Shown: in pieces, positions 6,127 through 18,697 of the stretch
How positions within the stretch are numbered: the stretch's first letter is position 1
How the letters are laid out: each line of letters starts with the position of its first letter
From: an uncultured Methanobrevibacter sp.
GTDB taxonomy: Archaea; Methanobacteriota; Methanobacteria; Methanobacteriales; Methanobacteriaceae
Reading direction: 5' to 3'
Assembly: GCF_902784195.1 (NCBI RefSeq)
Contig: NZ_CACZTX010000001.1
Span: 124,001 to 188,000 of the forward strand
Length of the DNA stretch: 64,000 bases
Translations under genes and position numbers: made by a program
The notes under the pieces: model-generated
What the model saw: the letters and a program-made list of their open reading frames with translations, nothing else
Told to the model about the DNA's origin: nothing
The model's database searches: none

Positions 6127-7389
6127 ATGAAAAGCTACATTTTGCAGCCCAATCACGTCAGAGGATTGGGCAACATATTGGACAATGAGGACAACATAGA
6201 AGGTCTATATTGCAGGGTGCAACAGCAGAACACAACCGTTGACTTTGAGGAGGTCATTATGAAGACCTATTACATGGGAACAGGCAGTGAGCTGACAATA
6301 ACCTTCATCACTGACAGCTTCAGCATTCTGCCCAATTCCACAGCCCACATCGATGTCATGGTTACTGACGAGGAGGACAATCCTGTAAGCGGCGTTGACC
6401 TTTACATTTATGATGACGATGAATTGATTGCCCAGCTCGAGACCGGCAATGACGGTTTTGGAGTTGGCGATGAATTGATTGGCTTTGATTTCAGTTCCGA
6501 AGCTAGCGGAAGGTACAGCCTTAAATGTGTGCTTCCAAGACAGGACACCTATCTGGAGTCCGTCAAGGAGGTTGCAATCAATGTATATGAGCAGACCACT
6601 CTAACATTGAGCATTGATCCGTCCGAAATTGACAGCCTGACTGATACTGTTACATTGTACGGAACTCTGATTGGAGATGAGAGCTTCGGCATTGTCGGGC
6701 AGTCAGTGAAATTCTATAACGGGGATGAATATTTGGGAGAAGGAATGACTGATGACGATGGTGTCGCCACCTTGGTTGTCAATGTGAGCACCCTGTCCGA
6801 CATTGCAGAGGAGACTGTCATCTTCGAGGACAGCTGCTCATCCTCAAGCGGCTTGACAAATTATGGCAGCTCAATACCATTGAGAAGCGGTACTGCAACC
6901 ATCGAATTTGACGGAACAAACCTTTGCTATGTCATTACGAATACTGGAAGCCAGAAGGAGTCATTCATTCCTATTACTCCATTGACTGGACTCACCGACA
7001 ATTTCACCATAGAGTTCGACAGCTATATCAGTGGAACAGACGGGTCAAGCGGATTTGTCATCTACAATGACGCCAACAATTGGTACAAGTTGACAGATGA
7101 CGGAAACAACAAGTATTGGGTAGGATACAAGGTCAACGGCTCCTTCACTGAGATTCCTAAATATCCTGGCAACACCTATCAGATGTGGATCCACAGCAAG
7201 TTCACGGTCAAGGATGGCGTCTTCAGCGTAGTAATAAGTGATTTTGAGGACCATAGTGTGATTGCCAGCTACAGCGTCAATCTCAATGGCTTCACAATAA
7301 ATGAGAGCACAAGGTTCGGCATAGATTCCGAATGGCAGTTGAACAGGAAAACCTATTACAGGAACATTGTAGTCAAGCAGATAGCTTAG
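6127..7389 (+). CDS. Distal tail/receptor protein with Ig-like and lectin-like domains
   Basis: A 420-residue protein directly after the tape measure (3-base gap), where siphoviruses encode the distal tail protein. Residues about 60-250 contain two Big-type Ig-like domains with the usual EDNPVSGVDLYIYDD and GQSVKFYNGDEYLGEG turns. Residues about 255-420 form a beta-sandwich that looks like a concanavalin/laminin-G type carbohydrate-binding module (NFTIEFDSYISG, GFVIYNDANNWYKL, RNIVVKQI ending). It may bind wall polymer. The assignment is by domain pattern; no exact homologue is recognised. Confidence 0.6.
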   Translation: MKSYILQPNHVRGLGNILDNEDNIEGLYCRVQQQNTTVDFEEVIMKTYYMGTGSELTITFITDSFSILPNSTAHIDVMVTDEEDNPVSGVDLYIYDDDELIAQLETGNDGFGVGDELIGFDFSSEASGRYSLKCVLPRQDTYLESVKEVAINVYEQTTLTLSIDPSEIDSLTDTVTLYGTLIGDESFGIVGQSVKFYNGDEYLGEGMTDDDGVATLVVNVSTLSDIAEETVIFEDSCSSSSGLTNYGSSIPLRSGTATIEFDGTNLCYVITNTGSQKESFIPITPLTGLTDNFTIEFDSYISGTDGSSGFVIYNDANNWYKLTDDGNNKYWVGYKVNGSFTEIPKYPGNTYQMWIHSKFTVKDGVFSVVISDFEDHSVIASYSVNLNGFTINESTRFGIDSEWQLNRKTYYRNIVVKQIA

Positions 7390-7400
7390 GAGTGAAAATC

Positions 7401-8894
7401 ATGTTTAAGTTCAAGGCAGTTTATGAGGAGACGGAAAGGTTTTTAGGTGCAGAATCACAGGTTTCTGAGATTGAGAAATCGTTGGCAGTTCCTATCATCG
7501 ACACCTTGGTTCCTACTGGAACCTACAATGTTGGTGATGTGATACCTATCACAATAGCAATAATCAACAGGAATGGAATAGGCATTGATAATCTCAACTT
7601 TACGCTTAATATAAACAACACAAACTACAGCAGAACCACAGATAATGAGGGCTTATACACATTTAATCATACCTTGGTAGGAGAGGATAATCTGGACATC
7701 ACAATAACCACAGTTGCCAATGACATTTACCAAAGTGCAGTGCTCAACAAGACTATAGAGATTGACAGCAGGGTGAACACCAACATCTCACTCACCACTT
7801 CGACCACCAGTACCAGCTTCAAGAACAGCTTCACCATAAAGGCTACCTTGACTGATGAGTCAGGAAATGCTGTGAACGGTCAGATTGATTTCTATCAGGA
7901 CGGAACAAAGATAAAGACTCTAAGCACATCAGGCGGTGTCGCAAGCTTCAGCCATACTGGAAGCGTCGGAACACACAGCTATTATGCCGTCTTCGGAGGA
8001 GACAGCAGCCATTTCGATTCTACAAGCAAGACTGTCAATGTTACACTCACAAAGGACACGCCGACAATCACTGCCCTCACAGGAGACATCTATCAGGATT
8101 GGGTTACTGCATGTGTCCTCAAGGACAGCAAGGGCAATGTGCTGAGCGGAAAGACTGTGAGGATTTCAGTCTCCCGCGACAACTCCAGCTTCAGCAATTA
8201 TGACAGGACAACAGATAGCAGTGGAAAGGCTAAGCTGACCATGAACTGGACTCCAACAAAGGTCTATGTCAAGTACATCTTCAGCGGAGACTCACAGTAC
8301 AACGCCAAGACACTCACAACCACATTCACCATACTTAGTCCTAAGTCCGTCAGCAAGTATGTCGGAACCATCGTGAGTAATCCTGCTAGCGACAGCGCCC
8401 CTTACCGTAAGTGGTACGACACATACACCAATGGCGATGACAATAATCTCAGGGCAGGTAACACCTGTTCCTCCGCACCTATCGGAGGTAAGAACGGTTC
8501 ATACAACCGTCCTGCCAACATCGAGAAGTCAGGTTTCGGATTCAACATTCCTACAACAGCGACAATCACCAAGATTGTCTGCACATGGAAGAGCAAGCAG
8601 GGAACCTGCTCAAGCAACACCGCATACATAAGCATTCCAGCAGGAACGGTCAAGCTGACTGGAAGCGGAAGCGGAACCACTCTGAGCGGAACAGGCACAA
8701 AGGGCGGAAACGGATCATACACCAGCAGCACTGTTACTTGGTCCAATCCGGGAGCCACTCCAAAAGGAGTGAACAGCTCAAGCATGAAATTGGTATTGTC
8801 CCACGGAGCCAACACCACCACAAACCCTGGACTGTTCTATGTCATCGGTCCTACTCTCACAGTATATTACAATCCAGCCCAAGGAAGTGTATAA
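7401..8894 (+). CDS. Tail fibre-like protein with repeated Ig-like domains
   Basis: A 497-residue protein. ATG at 7401 is chosen because GGAG lies 8 bases upstream and this start avoids overlap with the previous gene. After a short N-terminus there are three Big/Ig-like domains (residues about 25-115, 120-215, 220-310), each with the pattern 'T-V-T-D-x-x-G-x-A-x-F' and a YYAVFGGDSSHF-type closing strand. Residues about 320-495 form a beta-rich module (GGKNGSYNRPANIEKSGFGF, ATITKIV, ending TVYYNP) that recurs in the next protein. Probably a host-binding tail spike or fibre. Confidence 0.65.
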   Translation: MFKFKAVYEETERFLGAESQVSEIEKSLAVPIIDTLVPTGTYNVGDVIPITIAIINRNGIGIDNLNFTLNINNTNYSRTTDNEGLYTFNHTLVGEDNLDITITTVANDIYQSAVLNKTIEIDSRVNTNISLTTSTTSTSFKNSFTIKATLTDESGNAVNGQIDFYQDGTKIKTLSTSGGVASFSHTGSVGTHSYYAVFGGDSSHFDSTSKTVNVTLTKDTPTITALTGDIYQDWVTACVLKDSKGNVLSGKTVRISVSRDNSSFSNYDRTTDSSGKAKLTMNWTPTKVYVKYIFSGDSQYNAKTLTTTFTILSPKSVSKYVGTIVSNPASDSAPYRKWYDTYTNGDDNNLRAGNTCSSAPIGGKNGSYNRPANIEKSGFGFNIPTTATITKIVCTWKSKQGTCSSNTAYISIPAGTVKLTGSGSGTTLSGTGTKGGNGSYTSSTVTWSNPGATPKGVNSSSMKLVLSHGANTTTNPGLFYVIGPTLTVYYNPAQGSV

Positions 8895-8895
8895 T

Positions 8896-11838
8896 ATGGT
8901 TACTAGTCAGAAATTCTATGCGAAGAGCATTTCACAGACAAGCGAGAGCACAGTCTGGAACAGCACAAATCCGAAGAACCCTAGAAAGTACAGGAAGTTC
9001 ATCAATCTGGACGCCTTGAAGGCTGATGACAGCAACTATGCGACTTGCAGCAACTTGGGAGGAAAGAACGGAACTTGGAACCGTCCGTCCACAATAACTC
9101 TCAAGAACTTTGGGATAACCCTTCCTCAGAACATCAAGATCACCAAGATCATCGTCGGATATGCACATAGCAAGATAACCTACAGCAGCAAGACAGCCTA
9201 TCCTACAATAGCTGCTCCGACCATTTCCCTCATGAATGTGAGCGGAAGCGGAAAGGGAAATGCGGTGCCTGTGAACTACACCAAATGCACAAAGAGCTTC
9301 AATGTGAGCGCAACACGGGAGAAGGTCATGAGCGGCAATTTCGGAGTGAAGATAGACTATCCTCAGAACACTTCCACCAACTTGGCGGGAATGAAGCTCG
9401 GATATGTCTGGGTGCAGGTCGTCTATGAGGAGATCAGGAAGAAGGTCAGCGGTGCGGTCAAATCCGTTACACCAAATTCCTCCTCCAACAAGTCCTCCCT
9501 TATGAACACCATTGACGAGAACCTTGACATCAACTATTCTGCAAACAGCGTCTATGTCGGAGGGCAGTTTGCAATCGACTTGACCGTAAGCACAAGCGTC
9601 GAGACCAGTTCATCATTGAGGTTCAGGATTGACTTGGGAGAAGGGTTCAGCTTCGGAACAAAGATTGGAGGAGACGGAGACATCGGGGAGACCATCTCCA
9701 ACATAGGCGACAGCGGTCTCTTCTGGACGGTGAACACTGCAAACAGGACTGCTGCTGTCAGCTTCAGCCTGAATGCATTGAGGACTGGAACCCACTACAT
9801 CACGGTTACCGACACCTCAAACAGCAGAGTCATCAAGAAGTTCGGTATCGTTGTGCTTGACGAGTACTGCGTTGTGTTCAGCGATTTGCCTAGCTATGCG
9901 CTAGAGAACGAAACGGTTACCTATGGCATTGAGGTTTTCACAACCAATGAAAGGACAATCGCCAAGACATTGAAGATTGAGTTTCCTAGAGAGGTCCTGA
10001 TACAGAACTTTGAAACAGAGGACGGCGTCCTGACTGACGTTTCAGACTCAAATGGGTCTGCATTGAATTGGGAAGCCTTATTCACCGAACAGAAGGCTGG
10101 GTGTGAGCTTACCATAGAGCTTACCAGCAGCGGCGTCTACGGGCAGGTCATCACTGACGTTTCCAAGGAAATGGTTCTGGAGACCGATGAGATCAAGGTC
10201 AAGCCAATCACATTGACCAAGCCTTTCTTCTGCAGGACCGAACTTGACGAGGAAGTCATAAATCGCCTTGGGGAAGGCATAACCTACAATGCCTCCTGCT
10301 ACATGAAGATTGAGATTGACGATGACGTGAATACAGTCGCCAACGAGCAGGACATCTTCGAGCCATATGAGCACAACTATCGCTTCGGAATCTATCAAGG
10401 AGACTTCGATGACGAGGACGAGGTCTTTGAGAGCACAGTCTGGAGCGAGCCTGTAAAGGAATTGGGAATCTGGACCAAGCTTGAGCTTAACTTTGTCTTT
10501 GACAAGAGCTTGCCAGTCTACCTGATCAGGACTGGAGAGTACATTGAGAATCAGGCAACCTATGTGCAGGTATACTTCACTGAAGCCTGCATCATAGAGG
10601 GTTCTGTGAACAACGGCTTTGAGCATGGAGGAAATTATCCTGTCCCTATAAGGGGCTTGAATTCATTGGCGGACTTCTCACTGTTCGACATGAAGTCATT
10701 GGACAACACAAGCCCAGTGAGGCTGTACGGCTTGGATATGGACGACCTTATCCTTGAGGATATTGTGGTTGAAGGGATAACTGTATACTTGGACGTGAAC
10801 TGCGACAACAGCACAAATCTCCTGTGCAATCTTGTTCTGCCGAACGGAAAGGTGGGGCACAGGAGCGTCAACATCGACGAGGACACCAACGGAACGATAG
10901 CGATAGGCGGAGACTTTGACCTTTGGGGCTTGGACTTCGAGGACTTCATCGTCGAGATACTAGATGACATCGAGATTGAGCTGATAGCGCAGAACTCCTT
11001 CCTGCATGACAGCCTCCTTGAGATAGGCAATGCGAGGATAGAGTTCCATTACTTGGAGCTTGAGGAGGACTACATCGAGTTCTGGGTGAATGGCGTGAGC
11101 TCCAAATACTACAACATATTCCTCACAGATGTTCAGGGAGTGAGCGGAGCCAACAATGACGTCAGCTACTATCAGGTCAGCGGCTCCGACAACACCTTGG
11201 CTTACCTTTCAAGCATTGAATCGAAGAGCCTTGAATTGGAGTTCTATGTCGGAAGCTGCACAATCGAGGAAGCCACCCTGTTCCTTCAGAAGTTCAGCAA
11301 GCTGCTCACCAACGATAAGGACGAGTTCAGCAAGCCTGCCCTCAACACCATAAGGTTCGCCCACATTCCTGACCTTGAGTACGAGTTCATACAGGAGAAG
11401 GCAATCAAGGAGAAAATTGAGACTGGGGAGTACAGCTGCAGCGTCAGCCTGGTGATTCCTGACGGCACAGCATACAGCGTCCATGAGTCCTTGTGCGTAG
11501 GCACAGGAGTGAACAATGGGATAGCCAAGGTCAAGCCGATTATCCAGCTGCTTGCCTTGAGCGATGAGATAACCGTTACCGAAGAGGTTACTGGAAAGAG
11601 CTTCATCATATTCTCCACAGGAGAGAACGATGTCGAGGTCAATGACATTGTCCTGATTGACTGTGCAAGCAGAAAGCTCACCAAGACCACAATAAATGAG
11701 GACGGAAGCTTCGACACAGTAGACATATCAGACCATGTCGACTATGACAGCGACTGGTTCAGCATCATCGGAGAGTTCGACTTCAACAGCGGAGAGTCAG
11801 CTCTCGTTCAGGCTGTAAGGTTCCGCGAGAGGTGGTAG
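8896..11838 (+). CDS. Large tail fibre/baseplate adhesin
   Basis: A 980-residue protein beginning at ATG 8896, one base after the upstream stop. Residues about 15-180 carry a second copy of the beta-rich module seen at the end of the previous protein (GGKNGTWNRPSTITLKNFG, then ITKIIVGY and KTAYPTIAA). Residues about 210-420 are Ig-like strands with Thr/Ser-rich spacers. The rest (about 430-980) is acidic beta-rich sequence with a phage-tail-like end. It has no catalytic motif that I can see. Its place between the distal tail proteins and the baseplate hydrolase suggests a receptor-binding or hub component. Confidence 0.6.
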   Translation: MVTSQKFYAKSISQTSESTVWNSTNPKNPRKYRKFINLDALKADDSNYATCSNLGGKNGTWNRPSTITLKNFGITLPQNIKITKIIVGYAHSKITYSSKTAYPTIAAPTISLMNVSGSGKGNAVPVNYTKCTKSFNVSATREKVMSGNFGVKIDYPQNTSTNLAGMKLGYVWVQVVYEEIRKKVSGAVKSVTPNSSSNKSSLMNTIDENLDINYSANSVYVGGQFAIDLTVSTSVETSSSLRFRIDLGEGFSFGTKIGGDGDIGETISNIGDSGLFWTVNTANRTAAVSFSLNALRTGTHYITVTDTSNSRVIKKFGIVVLDEYCVVFSDLPSYALENETVTYGIEVFTTNERTIAKTLKIEFPREVLIQNFETEDGVLTDVSDSNGSALNWEALFTEQKAGCELTIELTSSGVYGQVITDVSKEMVLETDEIKVKPITLTKPFFCRTELDEEVINRLGEGITYNASCYMKIEIDDDVNTVANEQDIFEPYEHNYRFGIYQGDFDDEDEVFESTVWSEPVKELGIWTKLELNFVFDKSLPVYLIRTGEYIENQATYVQVYFTEACIIEGSVNNGFEHGGNYPVPIRGLNSLADFSLFDMKSLDNTSPVRLYGLDMDDLILEDIVVEGITVYLDVNCDNSTNLLCNLVLPNGKVGHRSVNIDEDTNGTIAIGGDFDLWGLDFEDFIVEILDDIEIELIAQNSFLHDSLLEIGNARIEFHYLELEEDYIEFWVNGVSSKYYNIFLTDVQGVSGANNDVSYYQVSGSDNTLAYLSSIESKSLELEFYVGSCTIEEATLFLQKFSKLLTNDKDEFSKPALNTIRFAHIPDLEYEFIQEKAIKEKIETGEYSCSVSLVIPDGTAYSVHESLCVGTGVNNGIAKVKPIIQLLALSDEITVTEEVTGKSFIIFSTGENDVEVNDIVLIDCASRKLTKTTINEDGSFDTVDISDHVDYDSDWFSIIGEFDFNSGESALVQAVRFRERW

Positions 11839-11841
11839 GCT

Positions 11842-14130
11842 ATGGTTGTTGACATCATAGTGCTGTCTCCTGACGAGGAGTTCATCGCATGGCTTGACAG
11901 CACATGCGTCTACATAGAGGAGACCTCCCAGTCAGAGACAATCCGTGAGATAACCTTGGAGCACAGCCTGAATGACGATACTAAAATCAAGAAGTGGTAC
12001 AGGCAGGGCAACAAGATATGGATAAGCGGAGGTCATGGTCTGAAGCCCTGCCTCTATGTGATAAACCAGGAGTACAAGATTGACTACTGGCAGAAGGAGA
12101 CTGTTACCTTGGAGGCTGAGGAGGTCCTTGTCGAGCTGAACAATGTCGAGCTCTACAGCTATACCGGAAGCAGCGAGATTGCTGTGGACAGGAGCTTCCT
12201 TGAAGGAGTGTTCGGAGACTACTATGACATAGGAACAATCGACAGCTTCGTGAACAGGCAGAACAACAAGATACTGCCTGTCGGAACGATGACATTGATT
12301 GAGCTTCTACGCCTTATCGAGAGCGAGACAGGAATGGTCTTCGCAACCCGCTACGAGAAGGCAGGAAACAATGTGATAAGAAGGTATCTGGACTTGAAGC
12401 AGGTCGACAACATAGGATTCACATATTCTCAGGCTCTCGACATAGGATACAACACAGACAATCTTGTCCATACGGTAAGCGAGACAGACACATACAGGGC
12501 AATGGCTCCCAAGCTTAGCCTTAGCGACAGCAGTGACGAGACAAGCGCCACTGCAATGACAAAGAGCCAGCTGGGCACCATAATCAGCCAGTACAGGAGC
12601 CTTGCAGTCAGCAAGGGAGACAGGATTCCTATGATAATCGAGAAGCGTCAGGAGAACAATTCCGAGACTGAGGTTGTAACAGCCTACTGGTATGCTCCGT
12701 TCAACAAGAGGGCTAACAACCTGTACGTTGAGGACGATGCAGGGGCTGATTCCGACTACAGCACCACGGAAGCCAACTACAACCAGATCTACAGCAAGAA
12801 GAACAGGAACGGCACAATTAAGGTTCCTAAGGTCGGAACAGTCTCGACCAGCGAGACAAACAAGTATGCCATCTACAATGCCTGTGCGAGAGCCTTGCTT
12901 GAGAAGAGGTATCCTGACATCGAGATTGAGGTGAGCGTTGCAGACCTGAACCTTCTGGTCGGCGATGACAGCTATTTCCATGTCTACGATACCGTCTATG
13001 TGAAGATTCCAGGATACAACGAGCTGATACAGGCTAAGATAACAAAGACTGTCAAGACTCCGAATGACAGCGGAGCTAACAGGATAACTGTAAGCAATGC
13101 CAAGATAGGAACCAAGGTGACCCAAAGGGACACCAACATCTCCATTTCCGACACCACAATAGCAAAGAAGGGTCAGAAGCTTGCAGGAATCCTGTACAGC
13201 GAAGGCATTCCTCTCGGAGACGAGATAGTGAGCCTAAGCTTCCAGAAGTATGTCGATGAGGCTGAGCCGAAGATTGCAGACACTTCAAAATACTCATCAT
13301 CAAAGAAGTCCACAAAGACCAAGACCGTAACGGAGAAGGTGAAGAGGACAGATGTCATAACCGCTTGGGGCTACAACACCTGCGCATGCTGCGGATATCC
13401 TAAGAACCCTTATAAAAAAGTCAGGAAGACATACCTGAACAAGTGTCCGAGATGCGGAAAGGCAATGGTACTGAAGGACAATCCGAAGAAGTGCAAGGAC
13501 GGGGAGATAACATGCTCTGCGTGCGGAGCGGACTTCTGCATCAACTGCGGAGGCGACAAGCAGGGAAAGAGCTACTGCAAGAAGTACAGGCTCACATCTG
13601 CAAGCGAGTACACAACCGTTACCAAGAAGGTGGACGTTGTCTCCACAACCAAGAAGAAGGAGGAGAAGAAGTCCAATCCTGACGATCCGACAGACAATAC
13701 CGTCGCTAAGGCACAGATAAAGAAATATAACATTCACAAGGACGTTGTCGCAAAAGCCCGCAGCATTTGCTGGGGAAAGAGGACAGACAAGTCCAAGATG
13801 AGAGCCATCGCTGACTGGATGGGTCTTGGTAACAGCGGCAAGATAAAGTACGAGAGGTATGCCTGCACCAAGAGAGGCGCTAGGAAGACCTTGGAGGCTC
13901 GGAAGGGCAATTGCGCAGACCAGGCTCACCTGTGCATTGCATTGGCACGTGCGGTCGGAGTCAAGGCTCGGTATGTCCACCGGTGGAACCACTACTACGG
14001 AGAGTACAAGATCGACGGGAACTGGTTCGTTGTGGACACCGTAACCAGCAAGGGCTGGGGACACTACTGGAGCGGTAGCGGCTATCTGATTGGCAAGGGA
14101 AACAGCTTGAAGGGTTGTAAGGTATCATGA
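11842..14130 (+). CDS. Prophage tail/baseplate protein with zinc cluster and transglutaminase-like hydrolase domain
   Basis: A 762-residue protein. Residues 1-about 440 resemble the gp27/gp44-like 'prophage endopeptidase tail' N-terminal region that forms the baseplate hub. Residues about 449-470 read like the first half of an Ig-like domain (KLAGILYSEGIPLGDEIVS). A Lys/Ser linker and a Cys-rich module follow (CACCG, CPRCG, CSACG, CINCG), probably zinc-binding. The C-terminus (about 630-762) is a transglutaminase-like cysteine hydrolase with Cys691 (GNCADQAH), His717 and Asp732 (WFVVDT). PeiW/PeiP pseudomurein peptidases belong to this superfamily. It likely opens the wall during DNA entry. 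The stop overlaps the next start (ATGA). Confidence 0.8.
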   Translation: MVVDIIVLSPDEEFIAWLDSTCVYIEETSQSETIREITLEHSLNDDTKIKKWYRQGNKIWISGGHGLKPCLYVINQEYKIDYWQKETVTLEAEEVLVELNNVELYSYTGSSEIAVDRSFLEGVFGDYYDIGTIDSFVNRQNNKILPVGTMTLIELLRLIESETGMVFATRYEKAGNNVIRRYLDLKQVDNIGFTYSQALDIGYNTDNLVHTVSETDTYRAMAPKLSLSDSSDETSATAMTKSQLGTIISQYRSLAVSKGDRIPMIIEKRQENNSETEVVTAYWYAPFNKRANNLYVEDDAGADSDYSTTEANYNQIYSKKNRNGTIKVPKVGTVSTSETNKYAIYNACARALLEKRYPDIEIEVSVADLNLLVGDDSYFHVYDTVYVKIPGYNELIQAKITKTVKTPNDSGANRITVSNAKIGTKVTQRDTNISISDTTIAKKGQKLAGILYSEGIPLGDEIVSLSFQKYVDEAEPKIADTSKYSSSKKSTKTKTVTEKVKRTDVITAWGYNTCACCGYPKNPYKKVRKTYLNKCPRCGKAMVLKDNPKKCKDGEITCSACGADFCINCGGDKQGKSYCKKYRLTSASEYTTVTKKVDVVSTTKKKEEKKSNPDDPTDNTVAKAQIKKYNIHKDVVAKARSICWGKRTDKSKMRAIADWMGLGNSGKIKYERYACTKRGARKTLEARKGNCADQAHLCIALARAVGVKARYVHRWNHYYGEYKIDGNWFVVDTVTSKGWGHYWSGSGYLIGKGNSLKGCKVS

Positions 14131-14309
14131 CAGGAAGCGAAGGAAGGACATTGAAGTCCATGAAGACATACACAAGGACTACGGATTCGGAAGGCAGGTT
14201 CAGCATTCCAATCAATCTTGCGAAGGGAGACTATGTGGTTACCGTGAACTATGGCGGAGGGGTCGAGTACTCTCCGTCAAACCGCAGGATAAGCCTGAAG
14301 GTGAAGTGA
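14127..14309 (+). CDS. Half Ig-like domain protein, separated end of the preceding tail protein
   Basis: A 60-residue protein translationally coupled (ATGA) to the tail hydrolase gene. The sequence TRTTDSEGRFSIPINLAKGD followed by YVVTVNYGG and a closing ISLKVK is the second half of a Big/carboxypeptidase-regulatory-like Ig domain. It lacks the first strands. These missing strands appear in the upstream protein at residues about 449-470, just before its Cys-rich insertion. The simplest reading is one ancestral C-terminal Ig domain cut by an inserted enzyme module. Whether the fragment is made, and whether it pairs with its other half, is unknown. Confidence 0.65.
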   Translation: MTGSEGRTLKSMKTYTRTTDSEGRFSIPINLAKGDYVVTVNYGGGVEYSPSNRRISLKVK

Positions 14310-14313
14310 TTCC

Positions 14314-14472
14314 ATGATTGATGAGAGTTGCAGGAACTGCGCGTTTCTGAATGAGGATTGCCCTCCGTACTACTGTGATTTCGGAGAGGACAATCCAGTC
14401 ATTTGTGCTGTGAAGATGAGAAAGATGAAGGAATATAAGAAAAATAAGTTAAGGAGTTGTTTAGATGGTTAG
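14314..14472 (+). CDS. Small cysteine-rich phage protein
   Basis: A 52-residue reading frame with ATG at 14314, four bases after the previous stop, and its end overlapping the start of the endoisopeptidase gene by 8 bases. The N-terminal part has Cys at 6, 9, 16, 21 and 31 (CRNC, then C-P-P-Y-Y-C), suggesting a small zinc-binding or redox fold. The C-terminus is strongly basic. No family recognised. The tight spacing on both sides favours a real gene; a lysis-timing or holin role cannot be claimed because no membrane segment is seen. Confidence 0.6.
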   Translation: MIDESCRNCAFLNEDCPPYYCDFGEDNPVICAVKMRKMKEYKKNKLRSCLDG

Positions 14473-15151
14473 ATTTAGCAAAGCGATGCTCCAGGACGGA
14501 GCGAAAAGGATTTTCAAGTGGTTGAAGAAGGGCGAAGGTTTGCCAAGTTACCTTATCATGTACGATATGGACAGGAACAAGGAGTACAGATTGACTCCTA
14601 AGGAGTATGCAGGTCTCTATGAGTCAAGGAACATATTCTGGATAAAGAACGGAAGGGAGCCTAACTATGTTACACTGACTTCCGTTGCAAGGAATCCTCT
14701 TGTGATGGACTACCAGAACACCAACTACACCTGCTGTCCTACAAGCTTGGCGATGGCTAGCATGATTTTGTATCACTATCGCTCTGAGAGCACCTGTGCA
14801 AAGGCTCTTGGAACTTCCAAGGGCAGTGGTACAAGCCCTGCTCAATTGATAGCGAATGCTCCTAAGTTAGGGTTCAGGATAATTCCAATAGCTAGAAACA
14901 GCAAGGAAGTGAAGAAATACTTGAAGAAAGGTTTCCCGGTAATCTGCCATTGGCAAGTGAATCAGAGCAGGAACTGCAAGGGAGACTATACTGGAAATTT
15001 CGGTCATTACGGTCTCATTTGGGACATGACCTCAACCCACTACGTAGTGGCAGATCCTGCAAAGGGAGTGAACAGGAAGTACAGGTTTGCATGCCTCGAC
15101 AATGCCAACAAAGGATACAGGCAGAACTATTATGTTGTCTGCCCTGCATAG
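14465..15151 (+). CDS. peiR: Pseudomurein endoisopeptidase (PeiR type)
   Basis: A 228-residue lysin that cuts the peptide cross-links of pseudomurein to release phage. Residues about 25-72 resemble a pseudomurein-binding repeat (EGLPSYLIM, then GREPNYVTL). The C-terminal domain is a C39-like cysteine peptidase with the triad Cys90 (TCCPTSLAMA), His181 (GHYGLIWD) and Asp197 (VVADPAKG). This matches the architecture known for PeiR of the Methanobrevibacter ruminantium prophage. It is the last gene of the late operon. No signal peptide or holin is visible next to it. Confidence 0.85.
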   Translation: MVRFSKAMLQDGAKRIFKWLKKGEGLPSYLIMYDMDRNKEYRLTPKEYAGLYESRNIFWIKNGREPNYVTLTSVARNPLVMDYQNTNYTCCPTSLAMASMILYHYRSESTCAKALGTSKGSGTSPAQLIANAPKLGFRIIPIARNSKEVKKYLKKGFPVICHWQVNQSRNCKGDYTGNFGHYGLIWDMTSTHYVVADPAKGVNRKYRFACLDNANKGYRQNYYVVCPA

Positions 15152-16344: not shown

Positions 16345-16468
16345 ACTTCTACTGTTTTTCTTGATTTTGACTACTTTTAAATAATACGGTTTCAATATAT
16401 ATTATTAAGAGAGGGTGATGGCACCCATATTAAAATTAGCTATTTTTTATCATTTAATGGTGATATGT

Positions 16469-18697
16469 ATGTTTGAAAAGGAAAGATATGTGGAACCTGC
16501 TAATAAAGCTTTGGAAAGAATCAATACTAAAAAAATCGATATTTTCAAAACTATTAAAAATTCTTATTATTTTGATATAAACTTCTTGGATGAAAATGAC
16601 AACGGATATTTCCCTGATTCTCAGGAAAAGGATTTTAGAGGTCAAGTTCAAGAAGGTCTTGAAAGAGGGAACGGAATATTCATAAGATTGTTTCAATTAT
16701 TTGTTGATGAAACCGGATCTTTTAAAGATGCAGAGGAATATGATGATATCCTTGTTTTCGATGATACTGTTTACTATGAAGGGTATGTCAAAGAGTGTTA
16801 CAATGACTTTTGGGGTTATGATGAAGAGGACTTTGACGATGATGAGTTAGATGATGACTATGACGATGAGGACTATGAAGATTATGATGATGAACCAGAA
16901 GCAACATTCTTCAGCATAGAATCAAATAAAGACAGTTTTTATGTTGCCTGCACAGTAAATGAGGTTCCTCCAATCACTGATTTCATATGCGATTTGGGAA
17001 TTAATATCTGTAAAGAAGAAGATGGCTATGGACTTAGGATTGGATACACATATTTGCCTGATGACTCATTCCATACAAATGTCATTTTCGAGGATTTAAT
17101 GCTTAGTGGTGAAATTGATGATCCTTTAACTCAGGCATTAGTGTTTTTGCTAGAGAGAAACATAGTCTTTGAAGGCGAGGAAGATTCAGAAGGAAAAGAT
17201 GAAGATATTTTTGAAAACTTTTTACAGGATATAAAAAAGGAGACAAGTGCTGAAATCGCGGATGTTAAAATCAAATCAAAAAGCGATAAGTTTGAAAAGG
17301 AAGCTGACGAACTGTTAGAATCCGGTGAAATAAATAATTATCTAGAACATTTTGAAAGATTAAACACCACTACAGACAGCATTTATAATTTGGGAGAGCA
17401 TGATGTTCTGATAATTCTTAAAGATGGAACCAATCTAACTGATTGGGAGAAAGTGGATAGCAACCAAGACATTTTGTACATCAGTGAAGACCTTTCCAAT
17501 TGCAATTATTCTCCAAGAAAATATATTTATTCAACATCTTTAAAAGCAGCAGTCATAACTGGAGTGACAAATAAAATAAAAGATATGGAAAGCATGTTTG
17601 AGAATTGTACTTCTTTAACTGATTTGTCTGGTTTAGAGACTTGGGACACTTCAAATATTGAAAAAATGGAGTATATGTTCAAAAATTGCTCTTCCTTAAC
17701 TGACTTATCCTTATTGGAGAATTGGGATATAACAAAAGCAAATAAATTATGGAACATGTTTCAAGGATGTTCTTCCTTGGAGGATATATCTGCCTTGGCT
17801 AATTGGGACACTTCACATTTAACTTCTGTAGCAAGTATGTTTAGCCGTTGTTCTTCCTTGGAGGATATATCTGCCTTGGCTAATTGGGACACTTCCCATG
17901 TAAAGAATATGTCCGGAATGTTTGGAAGCTGTTCCTCTTTGGAGGATATATCTGCCTTGGCTAATTGGGACACTTCACATTTAACTTCTGTAGGAGGTAT
18001 ATTTAGTGGCTGTTCCTCATTAGTAGATATTTCTGCCCTGGCTGGTTGGGATACATCTAAAGTATCCTCTTTAGGTGATTTAGTATCTTATTGTTCTTCA
18101 TTAATTTCTTTAAGTGGATTAGAGAATTGGGATACTTCTAAAGTGGAAAGTATGCTTGGAGCTTTTCGAGGCTGTTCCTCATTAGTGGATATTTCTGCCT
18201 TGGCTAATTGGGACACTTCTAAGGTTGAAACTATGTGGGTTGTATTTGAAAACTGTTCCTCATTAGTGGATATTTCTGCCTTGGCTAATTGGGACACTTA
18301 TAAAGTTACTGGTATGAGATATATGTTTAGTGGCTGTTCTTCTTTGAAGGACATTTCCTCTTTAGAGAATTGGGATACTTCAAAGGTCACTGATACGATA
18401 GGCATGTTTAAGGGTTGTTCTTCCTTGACTGATTTATCTCCTTTGGTTAATTGGAATTTGTCTCGTGTTGTTGATGCAAGAGGTATGTTTAAGGGTTGTT
18501 CTTCCTTGGTTGATTTGTCCTCTTTAAAAGATTGGAGTTTTACTCATATTTGCGTTATGAAAAGCATGTTTAAGGGTTGTTCTTCCTTGGTAGACGTTTC
18601 TGATTTAGATTGGGAAATATCTTCTATGATGGATACAATTGAGATTTTTGATGATTGCCCTAATATAGAAGCGTATCCAAGTTGGTATGAGAAATAA
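16469..18697 (+). CDS. BspA-like leucine-rich repeat protein (DUF285)
   Basis: A 742-residue protein from ATG 16469, chosen because GGTGAT precedes it. ATG 16418 would add a hydrophobic 17-residue leader. Residues about 1-250 are an unrecognised domain with a very acidic run (about 115-135, mostly Asp/Glu/Tyr). From about residue 373 come 13 repeats of 27 residues plus a degenerate last one, with consensus MFxGCSSLxDISALANWDTS, the DUF285 family. These repeats mediate binding in surface proteins of gut microbes. No signal peptide or membrane anchor is seen, so the location is unclear. Several units are almost identical at DNA level. Confidence 0.8.
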   Translation: MFEKERYVEPANKALERINTKKIDIFKTIKNSYYFDINFLDENDNGYFPDSQEKDFRGQVQEGLERGNGIFIRLFQLFVDETGSFKDAEEYDDILVFDDTVYYEGYVKECYNDFWGYDEEDFDDDELDDDYDDEDYEDYDDEPEATFFSIESNKDSFYVACTVNEVPPITDFICDLGINICKEEDGYGLRIGYTYLPDDSFHTNVIFEDLMLSGEIDDPLTQALVFLLERNIVFEGEEDSEGKDEDIFENFLQDIKKETSAEIADVKIKSKSDKFEKEADELLESGEINNYLEHFERLNTTTDSIYNLGEHDVLIILKDGTNLTDWEKVDSNQDILYISEDLSNCNYSPRKYIYSTSLKAAVITGVTNKIKDMESMFENCTSLTDLSGLETWDTSNIEKMEYMFKNCSSLTDLSLLENWDITKANKLWNMFQGCSSLEDISALANWDTSHLTSVASMFSRCSSLEDISALANWDTSHVKNMSGMFGSCSSLEDISALANWDTSHLTSVGGIFSGCSSLVDISALAGWDTSKVSSLGDLVSYCSSLISLSGLENWDTSKVESMLGAFRGCSSLVDISALANWDTSKVETMWVVFENCSSLVDISALANWDTYKVTGMRYMFSGCSSLKDISSLENWDTSKVTDTIGMFKGCSSLTDLSPLVNWNLSRVVDARGMFKGCSSLVDLSSLKDWSFTHICVMKSMFKGCSSLVDVSDLDWEISSMMDTIEIFDDCPNIEAYPSWYEK
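17585..18655 (+). repeat. Tandem 81-base coding repeats in the BspA-like gene
   Basis: Thirteen in-frame units of 81 bases. Three successive units share the block GGAGGATATATCTGCCTTGG and the following bases exactly or nearly so (starts near 17778, 17859 and 17940). The later units near 18182 and 18263 are also close to one another. Such near-identity indicates recent duplication or gene conversion, and the number of units may vary between strains. Confidence 0.75.

Follow-up and report, generated by a model that had tools for sequence, protein, structure and literature searches.

Ig-like folds that are completed by strands of another chain are known from donor-strand complementation in pili and from the MG6 domain of complement C3. 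There, either one strand is donated or the chains arise by proteolysis, while at the locus described here about four strands would come from a separate gene.

Discontinuous Ig-like domains within one chain have also been described. In the RTX adhesins FrhA and MpIBP, split Ig-like domains hold a ligand-binding domain away from the chain, and the authors note that such domains escape homology searches (PMC10865825). In lipin a split Ig-like domain is formed from two distant parts of one chain (PMC8342540). For phages, there is ample literature on Tal and Dit proteins that bear wall-degrading or carbohydrate-binding modules; the enzymes follow the hub in one chain, or CBMs are inserted in Dit loops (PMC9692632). 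Further, programmed frameshifting is known to give rise to Ig-like extensions in phages (Fraser et al. 2006, cited in PMC5009743).

The locus studied here lies in a stretch of 64,000 nucleotides, hereafter the window (C1:124001-188000 of a 2.05 Mb archaeal genome). Like the RTX adhesins, it shows a discontinuous Ig-like domain with a functional domain in a loop, for which the adhesin paper proposes outward projection (PMC10865825). However, the adhesins are bacterial, consist of one chain and have ligand-binding cargo, while here the domain sits on a virus tail hub, the cargo is an enzyme and two genes are involved in two viruses. A gp27-type hub with Ig-like and wall-degrading or wall-binding modules is shared with the Dit-Tal proteins of Gram-positive phages (TP901-1, C41431, BK5-T); the portion of the paper available describes neither an enzyme placed within an Ig domain nor one divided between two genes (PMC9692632). 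As in the frameshifted phage extensions, Ig-like material lies in a second frame behind a structural gene. Those extensions, however, are whole domains with a recoding signal (PMC5009743), while here there is half a domain, no recoding signal and probably reinitiation. The adhesin-like surface proteins of the host, Methanobrevibacter, also contain archaeal big (Big_3_5-like) and transglutaminase domains but, unlike in the viral hub, these are separate, uninterrupted and membrane-anchored (PMC11532034). No case of a tail protein whose Ig domain is shared out between two genes came up in the open-licence literature. Interrupted domains themselves are known; what appears to be new is the use of a split Ig-like domain at an archaeal virus tail tip, together with a natural two-chain version.

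The late end of the prophage and its hub protein

Positions 1 to about 15150 of the window are the late end of a tailed-virus prophage, which, as part of our overall explanation, is likely of archaeal siphovirus type. The gene order is HK97-gp10-like, tail tube, tail assembly chaperone, tape measure, two Ig-bearing proteins, Dit-like and hub; downstream of the hub follow the small gene, a 52-aa Cys-rich protein and a C39 peptidase (Table 1). A weak integrase match is found about 30 kb upstream of the window. In vir075 of Methanobrevibacter gottschalkii (L058) the counterpart of the Dit-like gene is annotated as distal tail protein, and a gene near the place corresponding to the C39 peptidase as endolysin PeiR.

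Some other proteins of the region should be mentioned. The tail tube protein (1001-2278) has a C-terminal CarboxypepD_reg/Ig-like domain, and several unbroken Big_3_5-like domains are encoded at 7332-8894. The Cys-rich microprotein is 81% identical to its L052 version and about 50% to those of L064 and L078. Just past the prophage, at 16415-18697, a protein of 760 aa has DUF285/BspA-type repeats that closely resemble one another.

The hub gene (11842-14130) encodes 762 residues, in the order hub, front Ig strands, linker, Cys module, linker and transglutaminase core, after which the chain stops. All the pieces that the initial annotation had named are found in the sequence. The motif that it gave for the front strands, GQKLAGILYSEGIPLGDEIV, is present as residues 444-463; however, it begins at nucleotide 13171, and the annotated start at 13195 cuts into it.

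An AlphaFold2 model of the hub was made from an alignment of 17 sequences and has moderate confidence (mean pLDDT 68; 68-69 over this model and that of a relative discussed below). Against the PDB, Foldseek matched it to the tail-associated lysin of phage NF5 (9m7n, E 2.3e-13), and further to monocin, Listeria gp18 (3gs9), phage 80alpha, Mu gp44 and T4 gp27. In a Pfam search Prophage_tail is absent from the window hub protein itself but present in relatives, one of which (L039) is over the cut-off (5.7e-9). The protein has both marks of a Tal-type hub, a gp27-type fold at the N terminus and a gene directly after Dit. The hub profile was matched in 19 of the 151 genomes of the order.

The hydrolase has the core domain of the transglutaminase-like superfamily with Cys, His and Asp. 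By position the proposed triad is C691 (13912-13914), H717 (13990-13992) and D732 (14035-14037), all conserved in L064. No Pfam match at E <= 1 to the C71 model (PeiW/PeiP pseudomurein endoisopeptidase) was found for the hub protein. Judged from its fold, its position on the hub and the pseudomurein wall of the hosts, the enzyme probably cuts pseudomurein during entry. It is distinct from the separate C39 endolysin.

Table 1. Features of the late end of the prophage (window coordinates).
Feature	Position	Strand	Residues	Evidence
Dit-like distal tail protein, directly before hub	8839..11838	+		Pfam SPP1_Dit C-terminal domain 7.1e-4 (residues 894-999), under Pfam cut-off
Tail hub (Tal/gp27/gp44 type)	11842..13110	+	1-423	AlphaFold2 model and Foldseek
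Ig-like front strands	13111..13269	+	424-476	Front-half HMM 7.5e-6; profile-profile against nested front halves P 6e-9; alignment A4
Lys/Ser/Thr linker 1	13270..13356	+	477-505	Sequence
Cys-rich zinc-ribbon-like module	13357..13608	+	506-589	Pfam IBR 3.4e-5, at IBR's cut-off
Lys-rich linker 2	13609..13716	+	590-625	Sequence
Transglutaminase-fold hydrolase	13717..14127	+	626-762	Pfam PF01841 2.3e-14 (core residues 639-732); PDB 3isr_A 4.1e-4
AAGGT, modest putative ribosome-binding-like site for small gene	14119..14123	+		Sequence
ATGA stop/start overlap of the two genes	14127..14130	+		Sequence
60-codon gene, Ig-like back strands within residues 11-60 (14157-14306)	14127..14309	+	1-60	Back-half HMM 1.4e-22; conserved in L064
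52-aa Cys-rich microprotein gene, between split-domain genes and endolysin	14314..14472	+		Conserved in L064, L052, L078
C39-family peptidase, PeiR-like endolysin, last late-block gene	14465..15151	+		Pfam Peptidase_C39 5e-9

The two half domains and the gene junction

The hub gene ends with TGA at 14128-14130 and the 60-codon ORF starts with ATG at 14127-14129. In Pfam the hits of the small ORF are confined to the second half of Ig models: positions 38-87 of 88 in Big_3_5 (5.1e-5, below the Pfam cut-off) and positions 28-63 of 82 in CarboxypepD_reg. A Pfam search of the front half alone gave no match, and an HMM built from unbroken domains alone did not detect it; family profiles are required. 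The small ORF scores 1.4e-22, against the window's other ORFs, with a back-half HMM made from relatives only (the window excluded), and the tail protein scores 7.5e-6 with a front-half HMM; the Ig match is therefore above chance.

In profile-profile comparisons with the unbroken Ig profile, the front half covers columns 22-72 (P 1.7e-6) and the back half columns 75-126 (P 3.8e-19), while control segments have P >= 0.05. The front half of the window and L064 alone is weak against the unbroken profile (P 0.0035) but strong against the nested front halves (P 6e-9). Both kinds of profile support the initial proposal that the missing back strands are encoded by the next, ATGA-coupled gene.

The exact split is known in two viruses only, the window prophage and L064 (IMGVR_UViG_3300031760_006869, IMG/VR contig 3300031760_006869), the latter being the only one recovered when IMG/VR was searched for further exact-split relatives. 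The hub of L064 is 65% identical to that of the window. It ends with GCKVY and two stops, followed by AAGGAGGG and a 59-codon gene with a TTG start. Its junction, TAATAAGGAGGGTTAAAGTTTTG, thus has a double stop, a strong SD and TTG, where the window has the ATGA overlap. The small genes have 63-65% amino acid identity, and their divergence at codon positions 1, 2 and 3 is 0.24, 0.22 and 0.68. The dN is 0.288 for the small gene and 0.284 for the whole tail protein, with dS saturated. This pattern indicates purifying selection on the small gene. The front half changes more quickly than the hub (56% versus 66% identity).

Could the break be a sequencing error, or a recent frameshift in a single genome, with the true gene a single chain as in the nested relatives? 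A shift of one base separates the frames of the two ORFs, and relatives with a single chain do exist. But the break recurs, with signals of its own, in L064 at 65% identity, and the small gene is constrained at a divergence where synonymous sites are saturated. Because the junctions differ and purifying selection acts on the small gene, neither sequencing error nor decay accounts for the split; two distant viruses keep the small gene, each with its own junction. L064 in essence refutes this explanation, and we regard it as extremely improbable. Very unlikely, too, is a programmed -1 frameshift into the small ORF, by which a fraction of the product would be a single chain. The small ORF of the window does lie in the -1 frame, and Ig-like C-terminal extensions made in this way are known in phages (PMC5009743). 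However, the -1 frame is closed by a TAA at 14118-14120, which leaves about three codons for any shift, and no slippery heptamer was found before the hub stop in the window. The closed frame and the lack of a slippery site argue for reinitiation over recoding. In L064 the small gene comes after two consecutive stops and a strong SD, and what a frameshift would add is half a domain. An Rfam search of the junction for RNA structure gave no match. Read-through of the stop was discarded, as no signal for it is seen and the stop in L064 is double.

A different explanation is that the small protein is expressed and conserved but acts independently, or pairs with another Ig-bearing tail protein, e.g. 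that at 7332-8894. Intact Ig-like domains are present in the neighbouring tail proteins, and in one relative (L043) two back-half genes accompany one hub front half. Against this, the hub front half is kept and the two genes are adjacent in both split viruses. Further, among the Ig domains of the family's genomes the small protein matches hub back halves at 1e-28 to 1e-30, while the next match is at 4e-15. On balance we find an independent role unlikely.

States of the domain among relatives

Relatives were found in the collections with alignment A1, while scans with a single protein as query gave nothing. The same Ig domain occurs in three states. Hubs in which it is unbroken at the same place, the comparison suggested by the initial annotation, number at least 13, e.g. 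vir075, L048, L050 and L076; here the complete domain is followed by Cys and transglutaminase-type modules. In six hubs (L038, L039, L040, L044, L046 and L065) it is interrupted within one chain by 150-290 aa of cargo in one Ig loop, and the back half forms the final residues, about 47, after front half and cargo. The cargo varies: L040 combines the Cys module with another transglutaminase subfamily, L038 has a different module, and the Cys module alone also occurs. The third state, with two genes, is that of the window and L064.

Alignment A4 contains 24 sequences, including eleven unbroken hubs, six with cargo and two with the gene break. The unbroken hubs align straight over the cargo site, with a short loop instead of cargo, and the joined halves match the unbroken domains column for column. 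In Big_3_5, the L064 small gene covers positions 43-87 of 88 and the unbroken L048 domain positions 5-88. This alignment, the joined halves and the complementary profile columns bear out the proposal that the enzyme modules lie within one Ig-like domain. Both pieces as separate complete domains were looked for and not found. The arrangement is that of a split Ig-like domain, an Ig/Big-like fold that is discontinuous with a functional domain in the gap, the fold being a prediction made in L040. The insert had been taken to explain the split as well. The interruption is real, but the gene split is a separate matter: in six relatives the interrupted domain is formed by a single polypeptide, in contrast to the window and L064.

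A tree of 33 hubs was built with IQ-TREE and rooted by the choice of hubs without the Ig domain as outgroup. These fall on one side (100/98), and the unbroken hubs (100/100) as well as the window and L064 (100/99) form clades. Five nested hubs and the unbroken hubs form one clade that excludes the split ones (97/94). The nested hub L040 is a single long branch. Interrupted hubs are basal to unbroken ones, whose clade lies inside the interrupted or split forms. The idea that a cassette landed in the Ig domain is therefore not supported by the hub tree, and we do not take it as settled history that the domain was first unbroken. Nor are the unbroken hubs empty sites, as Cys and hydrolase modules follow their Ig domain. 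On this rooting, an ancestor that was already interrupted, with the cargo relocated later in the unbroken clade, would be no less simple an account than repeated insertion into the same loop. The HMM of the Cys module matches many hub and cargo positions among relatives. This module is mobile on its own, moving between loops of tail-hub proteins.

Some relatives show the modules in other settings. In M. smithii tailed virus 1 (L059), L055, L051 and L053, and likewise in vir249, the Cys module lies inside the hub domain; the hub loci with an internal module are L055:5324-7864, L059:4998-7538, L053, L051 and L061. In L057, two neighbouring reverse-strand ORFs (8599-9795 and 9789-10922, reverse-complement coordinates) have the same modules packed in another way: one combines the Cys module with a transglutaminase-like end, and in the other a short tail-like N terminus is joined to a transglutaminase that shares 47% identity with the window's. 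L029:688-2277 encodes a secreted host-type protein with a Cys module followed by a transglutaminase domain. It is a candidate host wall enzyme and a possible source of the cassette.

A second clade (L042, L043, L045, L047 and L073) is probably also split, the back half being supplied by a nearby lysin gene, but the sequences are suggestive and the case is less secure than that of the window. In its hubs, the corresponding position is occupied by a stretch that resembles the front half (P 1.2e-4 and 55% probability in the profile-profile comparison, with control segments at 0.14 or above). C39-like cargo comes next, and these hubs lack the back half. The downstream gene encodes an amidase-like or Cys module, a Thr-rich linker, the back half and a C39-like peptidase region, where C39 and amidase are assigned by eye and by weak similarity. 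The back-half HMM scores 4e-6 to 5e-12 on these genes, in which the HMM search did not detect the front half. In L045, L047 and L073 the downstream gene starts in overlap with the hub stop or 1 base away, behind GGAGG. L043 has two downstream genes with Ig back halves and different cargo for one hub, whose own C39-like cargo is broken by a frame change (reverse-strand ORFs 6402-8456 and 8404-9792, reverse-complement coordinates).

Proposed assembly and its implications

The explanation that we consider likely is that the Ig-like domain on the tail hub is a scaffold for cargo, completed in the two-gene version by the small protein. The cargo, the zinc-ribbon-like module and the transglutaminase-fold hydrolase, would be held in one Ig loop by two linkers, between the front and back strands. 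In most interrupted relatives a single chain would enter the domain, traverse the cargo and return to complete the domain. In the window and L064, the chain instead stops after the hydrolase, and the last strands form the separate 59-60-aa protein of the adjacent gene. In the window this protein would be translated by termination-reinitiation at ATGA. Most likely it pairs with the hub front strands and completes the domain non-covalently, so that two polypeptides would assemble in trans.

The fold of the split domain is read from a natural single-chain relative, L040, in an AlphaFold2 model of moderate confidence (mean pLDDT 68-69). In this model the strands of both Ig halves have a pLDDT mostly of about 70-90. 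According to the strand list, the pairs 511-518/768-775 and 521-530/756-765 would share one antiparallel register (sum 1286), which takes in the last front strand, the first back strand and the two linker strands beyond them. This is what one would see if the Ig hairpin continued through the linkers and carried the cargo on a stalk of two strands. For the window, the small protein would supply the second of these strands along with the remainder of the sheet.

More tentatively, the Ig domain may be a two-part dock in two clades, that of the window and L064 and that of L042, L043, L045, L047 and L073. Hubs would carry the front half and cargo-bearing proteins the back half, with wall-cutting proteins that are non-covalently held and exchangeable.

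If the halves meet, a virus tail tip would here bear an Ig domain that is naturally encoded by two genes. Versions with one chain, with two chains and with an unbroken domain all belong to one family, which makes each step comparable. A natural split-Ig pair of this kind would also be a possible tool for protein coupling. For archaeal viruses, it would reveal the means by which they mount and exchange enzymes that cut pseudomurein, a matter about which little is known.
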